A stretch of DNA of 64,000 nt, from NCBI RefSeq assembly GCF_963678975.1, contig NC_089281.1, positions 2,172,437 through 2,236,436 on the forward strand, given 5' to 3'. Positions 45,875 through 54,800 of the stretch are shown one piece after another. The notes under the pieces are model-generated. The model ran no database searches, was not told the DNA's origin, and worked only from the letters and a program-made list of their open reading frames with translations. Each line of letters opens with the position of its first letter. Position 1 is the first letter of the stretch. Source of the stretch: Dysidea avara. Taxonomy: Eukaryota > Porifera > Demospongiae > Dictyoceratida > Dysideidae. The translations under genes and the position numbers were made by a program.

Positions 45875-48800
45875 ATGGACACTGGCAGTGATAGACACCT
45901 TATTATTACACGATACCTGCGGGTGAGTATATATGGATATTTTTGACGTGCACGTTTGCTCTAGGTATCTGACAACATAGCGATGATGATGCGAGTTTGT
46001 GTTCTACCACGGGGGAGAACAGATGGTGCTGTAACACGCGACACAACAGCAAGTGGCTGGTTCCTGGATCGCCACATGCAGGTAACATGGAGCAAACTAT
46101 AGTAGGATACTATTACGTATGATGTTTAGGAGTTGCTAATGATGATATATGACGAATTGTCTAGAAAGAGTAAAGTAAAACCATCAGCTTCTGATAAAGT
46201 ATCTTCACCGCTGTTTAAAAGAGGTACCTTATAGATACTTACGAAGGTCTGAGAGTAGCCATTTTACTTTAAAATGATGTAGTGTAATTGCAAGCTGTTG
46301 TGTGTGCTCGTGTCTCATAGCATGTGAAGGCCCAATTTATTATCAATGTTGCATCCCGTACGCGTATTTTGTCCCATACGCGTATGGGCATTTTCCCTGT
46401 CCCATACGCGTATGGGCATCCCGTACGCGTACAGTCAATTGCAGAATTCTTGAAAAAAGTATGCCGTACCGTGAGTGCTTCCGTAAGGCTCCCTGTGAGT
46501 AAATTTTATTGTCCTTGCCACGGATTCAACAGCAACTGAACCACACTAATCTTTTCCTCAATCCGGGTGATCCGGCGTCACTACAAATAGTTTTCCAGCC
46601 CACGGAATGTTTACGGCACGGGAAGAGGAATTTCAACAATTCTGCAATCGACTGTATAGGGCCCCGTATGCGTACGGAACGATATAATTTAATTCTGAGG
46701 CGCTTAGCGTTGCTTGCATAGATTCAACTGGGTTTACAAATACGTAGCTTTTGCAGTTCAGTTTCATTAAATATACCTTTGTTTTGGCTGTACTACCTAC
46801 TGGCATATACTATGTAGAAATTACATAGCTAGCACACTGCTGTCGCGCTTATTTGTAGCTAGCTAGCTAGCTATTTGTTTGCCTCATAGTACTTCGCGCA
46901 CGTTTCTTCTCCATGCTATAAGCTGCTATGTGCTGCATGTATCATATATCTGGCCTTCACCATTCAAATCATGTGGAGCATGCATATGTTGATTAAATCG
47001 GATGAACTTCTTGAGTAGTCTAGCAACCTTTTGGGCTAGCTAGTCACGAGTCCCTTGAACAAATCAGGCATCATTCTGCCTGTCCAGTAAAATATTAACT
47101 TATTTATTTATTTGCAATGTACAAACTCAATTTGAGTATTAATTCTATAATCTATAATTACTAATTGTTCTTAATGGAGTAGCGATGGGCATGTCAGTCT
47201 GCCTGTCCAGTATAATAGATAAATAGCAAATTATTTATATAGCACACCATAAATATCTAGCTATTCTATTATGTGACTGGACATATACCAGTGGTCAAAT
47301 GCATGCTGGGTAGAAATTAATGTGAATTATTGTGTAAGCAGAACTATGGTAAGTTAGTATAAATAGCTACATGCACTTCGTGCATATATAGCACAACATG
47401 CAGTACCGGGTAAATCATTAAAATCGATTGAAAGCTGCAATTCCATGAATCAATATAATTATTATTAGCTATAACAAGCCAGGTCATAAATTAATGCATA
47501 TAAATTAGACATGGACTAAGACTACATACTTATAACATAATAGTGCTGTCAGACCTTCAGTGCAGCTGGTCACTGTAAAGCTTTACAAACAAAAGCAAAC
47601 AGCACAGCTAACATAATACCCATGCACTAACACAGAGTTCAGTCCAAGAGATTCGTTTCAACTAGTTAACGCAAGCGTAAGTGAGACTGAAGTTTACACA
47701 TCCACTTAACGGTATATAAAACTACTAAAAATCGACTGATTTTCTGACATAGGATCACATAATCATAATATCCACTCTGCACTAAGCAGTAGCAGTGCTA
47801 GCTCTACACCATGCATGTTCGCTGGGGGCCAAACACAATTTTATAAATTATAATATGCCATACATTAATATTTAACCATGATTACATAAAGTCAATTACA
47901 TAGGTTGCACCAGTAGAACAGCATGGTCCAATAAAGTTAACTATAGGTATATCCTCTGGATTCAACTTAATGCTAATGTGCCTGTTGACACAATTCAGGT
48001 GGTACCACGATTCACATGTTCCACAGCCAATCTACGTATATATTCAGCTGATAGTCAATGAAACAAAGAGCAAACAACACTTACCCAATCCTGTGCTTTA
48101 GTAGCAGTGAATGAGCAGGTCCTGCAATGCTCTTCTATGGGTTCTGCAAACAAATAGATTGCTAACAACACTCATAAGTACCTTACAACTGCTTGTTTAC
48201 CTGAATTGTTAAGTATTTCTTTTGCCATCTCTATTCTTAAATCGTGAACTGTTCCAGCATGGATGTTCATTGGTAAATGTCTTAAATATTGTTCAGCAAA
48301 CTATTTTAGAAATTCTTTATGTTGTGTTGCAGAATATACTTAAGGCCATACCTTCATAACATAAACTCCACAAGACGAATTGTCTTCCTGTATACTGTGT
48401 GGAGGCGTAACGACTTCCCATACATACTTCTTTGGCCAATATCCACCACAATATTGATAGGTGCTGTAAGAGCTGCAAGAGAATTATATGCAAATAGCCA
48501 GGGATTATATGCAAATAGCCAGGGAGTTCAAAGAATGTGTTCCTGTTGATATGCAAATTAATGTGTATACATACTTAACTAACTATGTGTGCAAAATATT
48601 AACTGTACTAACTTCCAGTTTTTTCTTATCCTTTGTATTAGTCTATGATCTCTTTCTTCATACTTCTTTGGGTCAATGTAGAGAACCTTTCCATTCTTTG
48701 GTTCGACAATCTAAAGAAATAGTAGCTATAAAGATATAAATGTACAAATATGTCTGACCACCAATATCCAGTGCATCTTTTGGTAGCAGTAAGGTCCAAT

Positions 48801-51800: not shown

Positions 51801-54800
51801 CCATGAGTGAAGTGAGCATGTGTTTCACCACTCCGTTAGCTTTTTCAACACACCCATTTGATTGGGGGTGCCTTGGTCTACCTCGAATTAAAATTGTCTC
51901 TTGACTCCACTCATGAACAATCGTCTCAAAAAGCTATAAAGGAATGCATAAAATACAGCATACACCTAGACAGTTGTCTTTCCAACCTCATTGTTGAATT
52001 CTCGACCATGATCAGATTGGAGTATCTTAGGTACCCCAAGGTATGCGAAAACATATCGTTGCAAGCACAAAACAGTTTCTGCAGCACACTTCCTAGATTG
52101 TGCCCATAGAATGGAAAACTTGCTAAAGTGATCTTTGTAATGACCAATCCATCTGTTGTTGCTGTCTGGAATGCTTGACATGTCAATCAAATCAATCTAC
52201 AATATGAAGTATATATATATATAATACACTTATTATGTTATTCCTGCATAAATGGAATATAAAAGCAATATTATTTACCTGTCCACGAACATGGAATCTC
52301 TTTGAAATGATGGGTTTCAAAGGAGCTTTTGTTAATTGAGGCTTCTTACAAGAGCAAGTGAGGCACAGTCTGCAATATTCCTCTACACAAGTTCGTGTTA
52401 TCCCTTCGTAGTTTGACGAAATCTTCAGGCGAAAGAATGAAAATTATTGTGTGGCAGTGCTTATACCGCTTACACATACAGTGAAAATGTGCATTTTTAA
52501 TAATGCAATAATGACAATAGCAGCTAGGGAGTGTACATAGTTAATGCATTAATGCTAGCTGATTTATTAATAACACTCATATAATTATATTATACTATTA
52601 TGCATACCACTGTAAAAAGATTTAGCCACTCACACATTGAAAGGGTCTGATATATTTTGCGTTAAAAACTTATTTCTCCAATTGCAACAGGGTATAATAT
52701 TGAGACAGACTGTCAAGTACCCATGCATACTCCATAGTTAATGCCACCGACATGCGCGGTGTTGAAGGAGCGCGCGGCCGCGTTAAACTCACTATGCTCT
52801 TGCTCTTTGTAGGAACGATCACAGCATTATTTAATCCAATCTGCGGAAAATCTTTCAGTTCAAACTGCTTCTCCTTGACGTACTGCCTAAATCTTGGTTT
52901 AATTTCGTAATCGTCCTTGGAATCACCACCATCTTCCGAGCCATCTTCAGCTCCGTGACCAGAGTGGTCTAATGTACGAACGAAAGAGGAACATTGAACT
53001 ACAGCCTATACTACACAGCCGCTTAGCTACCTTCAAGCAAGGTGGCCTTGATTAAATCGAATTTCTCACGGTTAAACAAAGAATTAGAACGTTTCGCGGC
53101 CTGGCTAGCTAGGAACTCGTTAAATTCTCTCCGAACCCTTTCCACGGAAATTTTATCATCCATCACGGCATTCAAGCGGGACTCGATACTCTCAGGTGAT
53201 ACTCTCAGGTCATAAACTATACTGCTAGCAAACACTATAGGATTGCATGCATCAGCACTTGTGGCGGCAAATAAGCTCAGTAAAGCGAGCAGCAAAGAGA
53301 TCAAAAGAGAGGTGTTAAAATTATAGAGAGAGCATGTATCAGGCACTGATACAGAAATATATATTATCAAGAGTTCATAATATTATGAAGGGAGGTGGCT
53401 GGTCCAAGTTCAAGCTGAGAGAATAGAAGTGTAGAATCTACATAAAATATATAATCAACCCAGACTGCTTTTAATTCTGTATATAATATAACCTGTAACT
53501 TTAGTTTTGTAATTTAATTTTTTTCCTTGCCATGCCCACTGCTGTCCACTGTTGGTCAGACATGTGGTCGCATGTTGTCCGAGGACACATTCTCTTGTAC
53601 ACAATATAATATAATTTGTTTGTAATCAGTCATTCGTGTTTTCTCAACAATTATTAATGATGGTTTCTTCTTCTATACATAATATATACATGGACAAAAT
53701 GAAAGTGAGTTTTAGTAGGACTCGAGCATGATCAATGTATCAGATAATGAGGGTGGTGATAGCTACTGACCATATCCATGGCTGGTGTACGACTTACAGT
53801 CTAGATAAACACATGATGAGTCACAGTGTACTCTTAGTACACTGTAGGCTAGCATACTGCACAGCATGCCCTGCTAGGAATAAAAGGGCATTCTTCCCAA
53901 TTTTTGAATATCTACCTTCCTGAGATTAAAACTATAGAAGAAAATCTTTTAAGTCTAGGATTTGTTGAACTATTCTTACTACCGACTGCCTATGCTATAT
54001 AGACTCACTTCTCCTCTACATGCTGTCAATGGTATGAAACTAGTATGTAAATGCATAGCCACAGTATTTTATTATTTTTTGGCAGGAAGTAAAGGCATGC
54101 CTATGCAATTCACAGGCCAAGCAAGGTGGGTGCCTAGCCACCCCATCCACTCCCTGGATCAGCCCCGGCCCTATGCATGTGTGGCAAAGGCCACATGGGT
54201 GAGTGGTTGCTAGGAGCATGTTCAATTGTTGACTGGATAGCCACTTCACTTCCTGCTTGGATGGCTCCTTGAGGTATTGTTGCTCAGCAGTTGCTATCGG
54301 TGATGCTACATATTACTTAATTGCCCCATGTAATGAAGTAATTTTCTCTTGTTATAATGTTGTTTATGACCCACACTGTTAAAAAGGATGTTCCCAGTAC
54401 ACCTTTCGGGGTGTCCCCCACATGTTCCAGAATAGCTAGCTATATACATTAGCTATACACTCCTGCATTTGTTGCACCTTTGCAATTTTAACTCTTCTAA
54501 GTGCTGATAGTTCAAATCAGGATTCAGGATACCAGCTGCTTTATCTATAAGTTAGTTTTGCATTAAGAATAAATATTATATTAAACTTGATATCATGCTA
54601 TAGCTAGCTTTACTGTTTTATTCACATACAATAGACTGTGTACTACACCTTCATGCAAGTTCCAGTAAAACTATAAAAGTCATTTTTCTCTCCACGCCAT
54701 GTCAACCCATTGAAGCTGTCGATAGCGAATTAAGCGCCTCTAAAATCATTTATCGTCTAGCCAATTCATTCAGTTACAGCTAGATAACAGTGATTTTGTA

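Follow-up and report, generated by a model that had tools for sequence, protein, structure and literature searches.

An intron-rich, Ginger-like DNA transposon family of the sponge Dysidea avara whose predicted protein joins an integrase to a SENP2-like protease and a PHD-like finger

Results

A minus-strand gene joins an integrase to a Ulp1-type protease

We analysed a stretch of 64,000 nucleotides from the genome of the sponge Dysidea avara (the window, C10:2172437-2236436; features are numbered from its first nucleotide) and searched the whole assembly of 550,814,596 bases in 108 contigs. A mobile element at 46347..54975 of the window encloses a gene on the minus strand, for which we placed 20 exons from 53163 to 47882; their AG/GT borders and compatible phases give one frame of 1071 amino acids. 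The predicted protein consists, in this order, of an integrase, a CXC block, an unnamed domain of ~140 residues, a SENP2-like Ulp1/C48 protease and an atypical PHD finger. About 20 minus-strand GT-AG exons read as one protein had been proposed earlier from the letters of the window (the original prediction); 20 exons do join in phase, but the set is incomplete, exon 3 being deleted here, and the donor of exon 13 reads AT. Exons are numbered below as in the family, which has 21, so that the numbers of the window's 20-exon model are raised by one from its third exon onward.

All exons lie on the minus strand. Exon 1 (53031..53163) carries the start codon, at the same Met with which the NCBI protein P0030 begins, and exon 2 (52793..52968) is found in the spliced model, the other copies and P0030. 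At the junction of the exon 3 deletion (52613..52619) two BLAST pieces overlap by 7 bp and ~200 bp are gone. The CC half of the HHCC zinc domain lies in exon 4 (52279..52422), followed by the integrase core with both catalytic Asp in exon 5 (51987..52196) and the catalytic Glu in exon 6 (51753..51933), the C-terminal part of the integrase in exon 7 (51411..51689), and a tail without a GPY/F motif together with the CXC block in exon 8 (50858..51352). The linker of exon 9 (50625..50801) meets the acidic linker of exon 10 (49941..50018) at the junction that connects both halves. The unnamed domain occupies exon 11 (49468..49881) and is followed by exon 12 (49306..49389), whose last four residues are missing from the NCBI protein P0001. 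The C48 protease starts in exon 13 (49147..49268) and continues through exon 14 (VIASYLLYMIRANKK; 49046..49090), exon 15 (48885..48971), exon 16 with the His (KMHWIL; 48762..48827), exon 17 with the Asp (YIDP; 48613..48710) and exon 18 with the Gln and Cys (SIQEDNSSCGV; 48352..48472), the last two placed by alignment to SENP2, and ends in exon 19 (48201..48300). The PHD finger is divided between exon 20 (48085..48143) and exon 21, which includes the stop codon (47882..48031).

The two halves are in phase across 50625/50018 (...NARDG/CSSGVQ...), as had been claimed, and the same junction is used by P0001, a protein of 762 amino acids annotated independently by NCBI. P0001 begins inside exon 5 and finishes in exon 17, and besides single residues it differs from the window model at three borders (the exon 12 donor, exon 13/14, and exon 16, where it has one residue more); its label "isoform X1" is an annotation name and not transcript evidence. 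P0001, P0030, P0034 and P0040 are all named by NCBI as Dysidea avara. The exon model is more than chance, because all 21 exons are open in 4 of the 20 other copies described below, and because a diverged protease-PHD family (L049) keeps the lengths of the last exons (121, 100, 59 and 153, against 121, 100, 59 and 150 here) and their phases, that of exon 21 included. The two families share 81 of 142 residues, with a dN/dS of 0.21 over these 142 codons (dN 0.38; dS 1.77, near saturation).

Domains of the predicted protein

When the whole protein was compared with Pfam, Peptidase_C48 exceeded its cut-off (E 1.1e-7), while rve (E 6.6e-6) and PHD (E 2e-4, 21.7 of 24 bits) remained under theirs, as did the weak match of the CXC block to Tesmin/TSO1 CXC (E 0.036). 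Of the four profiles suggested as a check of the original prediction, C48 alone thus passed its cut-off. The integrase triad is present (D153 or D156, D213 and E251, with 37 residues between the last two), and the zinc domain has the HHCC spacing H-x5-H and C-x2-C. Exon 3 of copy L036 joined to exon 4 gave 33.9 bits for Integrase_H2C2 (cut-off 25.5), and P0030 also has exon 3 ahead of exon 4. NCBIfam returned weak IS481/IS3/IS21 matches far under cut-off.

The protease aligned to SENP2 (1tgz, E 1e-5) and SENP1, and its His893, Asp909, Gln957 and Cys963 fall on positions of SENP2 that we take to be the catalytic ones. This likeness favours SUMO as the probable substrate; it is a distant one (best E 1e-5), and the activity of the D. 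avara protease is putative. The PHD-like finger reads C, C, C, C, H, C and then just an adjacent CC, an atypical last cysteine pair. The exon 11 domain matched no Pfam family over cut-off, and similar domains occur elsewhere in the genome at 32-46% identity. Some of these lie in open frames of 109-729 amino acids arranged as facing pairs ~3 kb apart (C4:42283132/C4:42280057 and C7:8079993/C7:8076799).

Ends, target duplications and copies of the element

The original prediction had noted an absence of visible terminal inverted repeats (TIRs). We found them 1.5-1.8 kb beyond the gene, with termini TGTTGCATCCCGTACGCGTATTTTG and, inverted, TGTTGTGTCCCTCATGCGTATTTTG (TGTTG...CAACA). The same 4 bp, TCAA, stand on both sides as a target site duplication (TSD; left 46343..46346, right 54976..54979). 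The left TIR (46347..46437, plus strand, an interval that reaches a few bases into a nested insertion), with TGTTGCATCCCGTACGCGTATTTTG at its start, is interrupted by this insertion and resumes at ~46655; the right TIR, on the 5' side of the gene, was assigned to 54869..54975 (minus strand) by its length in other copies. TIRs measure ~107-110 bp in all four copies measured (L030, L036, L040 and L046) and contain the palindrome CCCATACGCGTATGGG in repeated form; four copies of the element span 8.3-9.2 kb. The nested insertion (46432..46654, ~223 bp) has inverted ends CAGTC...GACTG with TA on both sides, as seen by eye, and inverted arms at 46430-46455 and 46631-46656; it is presumably a Tc1/mariner-type miniature inverted-repeat transposable element. 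It is absent at this place in 12 of 13 other copies, while L029 enters other sequence.

A genome search with exon 8 gave at least 21 loci, including the window, at 95-100% identity on 10 contigs, in addition to diverged relatives at 31-52%. The 20 other copies, when compared with the window by BLAST, have common ends at ~54975 and, nested insertion aside, at 46347. Pairwise exon identity among the copies has a median of 99.4% (range 98.7-99.8%, 210 pairs), and the spread is therefore recent. Both ends, sought by pattern, were found in 10 of the 21 copies (the window and nine others), eight of which have matching 4-bp TSDs, all different (TCAA, AAAT, GTTC, ATCA, CCTG, TGGA, ATTA and TTAG); the chance of a match is 1/256 per copy, as calculated for equal base frequencies, with no shuffling. 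The donor GT and acceptor AG of the 50625/50018 intron are kept in all 21 copies. A search with the final 300 bases of the window copy, in which 40 of 139 candidates were scored, found them over their full length in at least 20 places, the window included; at least 12 shorter matches to the TIR (80-85% identity) may come from related elements that lack the gene. Two near-identical loci, C1:57464512 and C1:55133419, have the protease-PHD half without exon 8 and are taken as truncated copies.

Damage in the window copy and state of the others

The stretch from exon 2 to exon 4 is covered by 18 of the 20 other copies, all of which contain exon 3 and hold ~200 bp more there than the window; L030 and L031 differ further yet keep the exon. 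In L036 exon 3 consists of 126 bases, or 42 in-frame codons (VPANSLFEGYRRVVTTDDIFDIIQSVHEKGTAHSGVRKTYSV), and supplies both His of the HHCC domain; it is also contained in P0030, and P0034 has a homologous stretch. The frame of the window copy survives the loss because exon 3 is a multiple of three. The residues AHVGG, encoded in a different frame shortly after exon 2, were considered as the HH motif and dropped, given the real exon 3 in the other copies and in P0030. The splice donor of exon 13 (49145..49146) is AT in the window and GT in 20 of 20 other copies, so the border 49143/49083 of the window model is a copy-specific reading. The family border (...TDE/VIASYLL) has the donor directly after the Glu codon at 49147, with exon 14 beginning at 49090. 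Since two zinc-domain His and one splice donor are lost, the window copy probably makes no working transposase itself.

Four of the 20 other copies retain all 21 exons at full length and free of indels and stops. In 14, one exon or more is interrupted by a stop or a frame-shifting indel, and in two (L029 and L031) the sole defect is an exon whose alignment ends early; this tally judged exon frames, and splice sites were counted separately. For L044 and L045, exons 1-7 lie beyond the stretch compared, the integrase exons being several kb further. Pooled pN/pS within the window family is 0.65. Changes found in a single copy number 85 non-synonymous plus stop against 42 synonymous (0.52 per site), and those common to several copies 15 against 1; because transition bias alone lowers such ratios, we draw no conclusion on selection from them.

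Linkage of the two halves in diverged loci

A diverged subfamily at four loci (C8:2660xxxx, C9:526xxxx, C1:5218xxxx and C1:3360xxxx) has integrase exons 63-71% identical to those of the window family. The exon 8 block follows the integrase in all four and the exon 11 domain in three. At the locus that was read, C8:2660xxxx (L050), the first C48 exon follows at 45% identity; no later C48 exon turned up in the 1.6 kb read there.

Integrase relatives and the CXC tail

We fetched 91 proteins, many of them fragments or retrotransposon proteins, after searches whose queries were the complete predicted protein (seed words taken within its first 500 residues), the protease half and an alignment of the integrase half. 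The protease-half search gave only P0001 at E <= 0.001 among candidates of similar length. P0030, P0034, P0038 and P0046 bear the NCBI name "KRAB-A domain-containing protein 2-like". An integrase tree of 82 rows was built from 73 of the 91 proteins, with P0030 residues 101-330 for the window family, and eight rve hits of the D. avara genome; 18 proteins with <150 positions were excluded. In this tree, which is midpoint-rooted, contains no Ginger1/2 rows and has flagged long branches and unsettled bootstrap values, the window family groups with P0034 and P0046 (Mytilus; 97/91) inside a 63-row KRBA2-like clade (100/99), and the remaining 19 rows are reverse-transcriptase or gag-pol proteins and the eight rve hits.

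The CXC cysteine pattern is present in 22 of the 91 fetched proteins. Because it recurs in proteins of a bdelloid rotifer, of Rhizophagus and of a nimavirus, CXC looks like an old part of the KRBA2-like integrase clade and not like the added block it had been thought to be. The nimavirus-assigned protein, P0070, has a KRBA2-like integrase with a CXC tail. At least 23 further loci in D. avara (C11:24453817, C2:11631384, C2:52258112, C6:15034527 and others) have an integrase 45-48% identical to that of the window family, the match crossing the exon 5/6 border without an intron; they belong to another KRBA2-like repeat family.

Other elements in the window

A plus-strand open frame of 1843 amino acids at 8763-14294 has Peptidase_A17, DUF1759, RVT_1, H2C2 and rve and is a BEL/Pao-type long terminal repeat (LTR) element. 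On the minus strand, an open frame of 652 amino acids at 16305-18263 has DUF4371 and a hAT dimerisation domain and is a hAT-type transposase. Neither Rfam, at its gathering threshold, nor a tRNA scan gave a match in the window.

Discussion

From the copies, their ends and the gene they share, we conclude with very little doubt that the segment 46347..54975 belongs to a Ginger-like, intron-bearing family of DNA transposons with a single transposase gene, which has multiplied recently in D. avara, and that this copy is internally damaged. The near-identical loci have common ends, TIRs and, in eight of ten, TSDs; the D, D and E of the integrase and the H, D, Q and C of the protease are present; four other copies retain every exon; and the order of integrase, CXC, exon 11 and C48 start recurs in the diverged subfamily (C48 at one locus). 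A Ginger/GIN-type integrase with accessory Ulp1 and PHD, as originally predicted, is upheld by the domain content, the TG...CA ends, the TIRs and the 4-bp TSDs.

Several observations pull in the other direction. The support consists of DNA sequence and annotation. TSDs mismatch in two of the ten two-ended copies (L032 and L039), and the end patterns failed to locate both ends in 11 of 21. L035 and L048 have a common right flank, and one rearranged structure is shared by L044 and L045; each pair may be segmental duplicates and not insertions. Finally, at least five loci (C8:24064895, C3:1166202, C6:16079393, C6:16131030 and C12:2201423; 59-66% identity per exon; L049 and L051 come from these) have the protease-PHD module with no exon 8 (CXC) or exon 11 match near and no integrase among the matches listed. 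In the 1.6 kb upstream of one of them (L051) no integrase was seen, and an upstream frame there, in three pieces, had no Pfam match over cut-off.

These five loci, along with the in-frame stop at 50602 that would be met if the intron remained unspliced, speak for two adjacent genes or nested elements, an integrase transposon and a Ulp1-PHD gene, misjoined at 50625/50018. Halves unlinked elsewhere had been named as a result that would overturn the one-gene model, and this is partly seen, in that no matching integrase was found near the five diverged loci; within the family itself, a single pair of ends surrounds both halves in the ten two-ended copies. P0001 crosses the junction, the intron borders are retained in every copy, and in the diverged subfamily integrase and exon 11 stand in the same order, with the C48 start behind them at the single locus read. 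We consequently hold a misjoining to be quite improbable, and take the five loci to mean that a different repeat family employs this module. Even less credible is a remnant of a Gypsy-type LTR retrotransposon or of a virus with a nimavirus-like integrase. A sequence search of solved structures does rank retroviral integrases (PFV) first, with Ty3 also found, and the nimavirus-assigned P0070 is a homologue; but the terminal repeats are inverted, the spliced gene gave no Pfam match to a reverse transcriptase, RNase H or aspartic protease, and the integrase stands with KRBA2-like proteins apart from the reverse-transcriptase rows (100/99).

The original prediction had leaned towards domestication, that is, a single host gene derived from a Ginger integrase whose protease serves SUMO/NEDD8 control. 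The long, open multi-exon gene, whose exons as read contain no in-frame stop, would suit this, as would the annotation of parts of the family as genes by NCBI. Against it stand the number and dispersal of near-identical loci with TIRs and TSDs, the stops and frame-shifting indels in 14 of the 20 other copies, and the window copy itself, which alone lacks exon 3 and the exon 13 donor. As the window gene is not single copy, has TIRs and is damaged, we reject domestication for it and give the idea next to no weight. Imagin, a domesticated Ginger1 gene, is described in the accessible part of its report as single copy, without inverted repeats and with the catalytic Glu lost (PMC12863088), in contrast to the multi-copy D. 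avara family with its TIRs and its D/D/E.

In the part of Bao et al. (2010, PMC2836005) available to us, Ginger1 is defined by a Gypsy-like integrase with YPYY and GPY/F, TGTNR ends, CCGG/CCGT TSDs, and OTU or Ulp1; it has 0-4 introns (Table 1 there), a length of about 2.6-7 kb and TIRs of 40-270 bp, and Ginger1-9_HM of Hydra combines Ulp1 with PHD. Integrase plus Ulp1 plus PHD is to that extent already published for Ginger1. The D. avara family resembles Ginger1-9_HM in its integrase-type transposase, C-terminal Ulp1 and PHD, TGTNR ends, TIRs, 4-bp TSD and introns: it has a DDE integrase with HHCC (without the HH half in the window copy), TGTTG ends, and a C48 over cut-off with a PHD just under. 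It differs from Ginger1 as published there in that its TSDs at eight sites are not CCGG, CCGT or ACGG, in its 20 introns and length of 8.3-9.2 kb, and in the additional CXC block and ~140-residue domain. By eye, no GPY/F motif was seen after the DDE core, the aligned place reading RRIPGVVV (LPCIVV in P0002, LPCLIV in P0003), and no YPYY upstream of the zinc finger was recognised in exons 1-3, where no profile was used. The element works like Ginger and is not filed here as Ginger1. With Ginger2/TDD, as that text presents it, it shares 4-bp TSDs in animals, TGTNR ends and the lack of GPY/F; the RTATAY target preference published there does not fit the eight D. avara TSDs, and Ulp1, OTU and PHD are named there for Ginger1 only.

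With KRBA2-like proteins the family shares the integrase clade and a CXC tail found in many members, while the protease half is missing in the eight whose sequences were read. What sets the family apart from published Ginger1 is the KRBA2-like integrase clade with CXC, the 20 introns, the unspecific TSDs and the lack of GPY/F. In the open-licence PMC literature we found neither a description of KRBA2-like integrase elements as a transposon group nor an integrase-CXC-Ulp1-PHD transposase. The main text of the D. avara genome paper, as far as accessible, reports 15 chromosomes and a 575 Mb assembly of its own and does not contain the words "transposon" or "Ginger" (PMC12909245).

We suggest that the single 21-exon gene of the family makes a transposase whose HHCC zinc domain and DDE core would bind the TIR ends and join them to the target with a 4-bp stagger. 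The SENP-type protease most likely strips SUMO off the transposase or, at the site, off host factors of chromatin and repair; that Ulp1 takes part in transposition or repair was proposed in the available text of Bao et al. (PMC2836005). The CXC and PHD-like fingers may tether the complex to DNA or histones. The window copy could have moved before it was damaged, or been moved by other copies. More tentatively, and with somewhat more doubt than confidence, we propose a third Ginger-type group, with a KRBA2-like integrase and CXC tail, little target preference, and its own SUMO protease and histone-reading finger, from which, and not from Gypsy or Ginger1/2, vertebrate KRBA2 would descend.

The sponge D. 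avara thus has a recently multiplied transposase of integrase, SUMO protease and PHD type on the scale of its chromosomes; its target sites show no evident preference, and the number of its introns is unusual. The family ties gene models labelled "KRBA2-like", in animals as well as fungi, to a mobile element defined by its TIRs and TSDs, and serves as a warning that such models can be transposons. It also provides a natural protein for testing, domain by domain, whether transposons edit host SUMO and ubiquitin signals.

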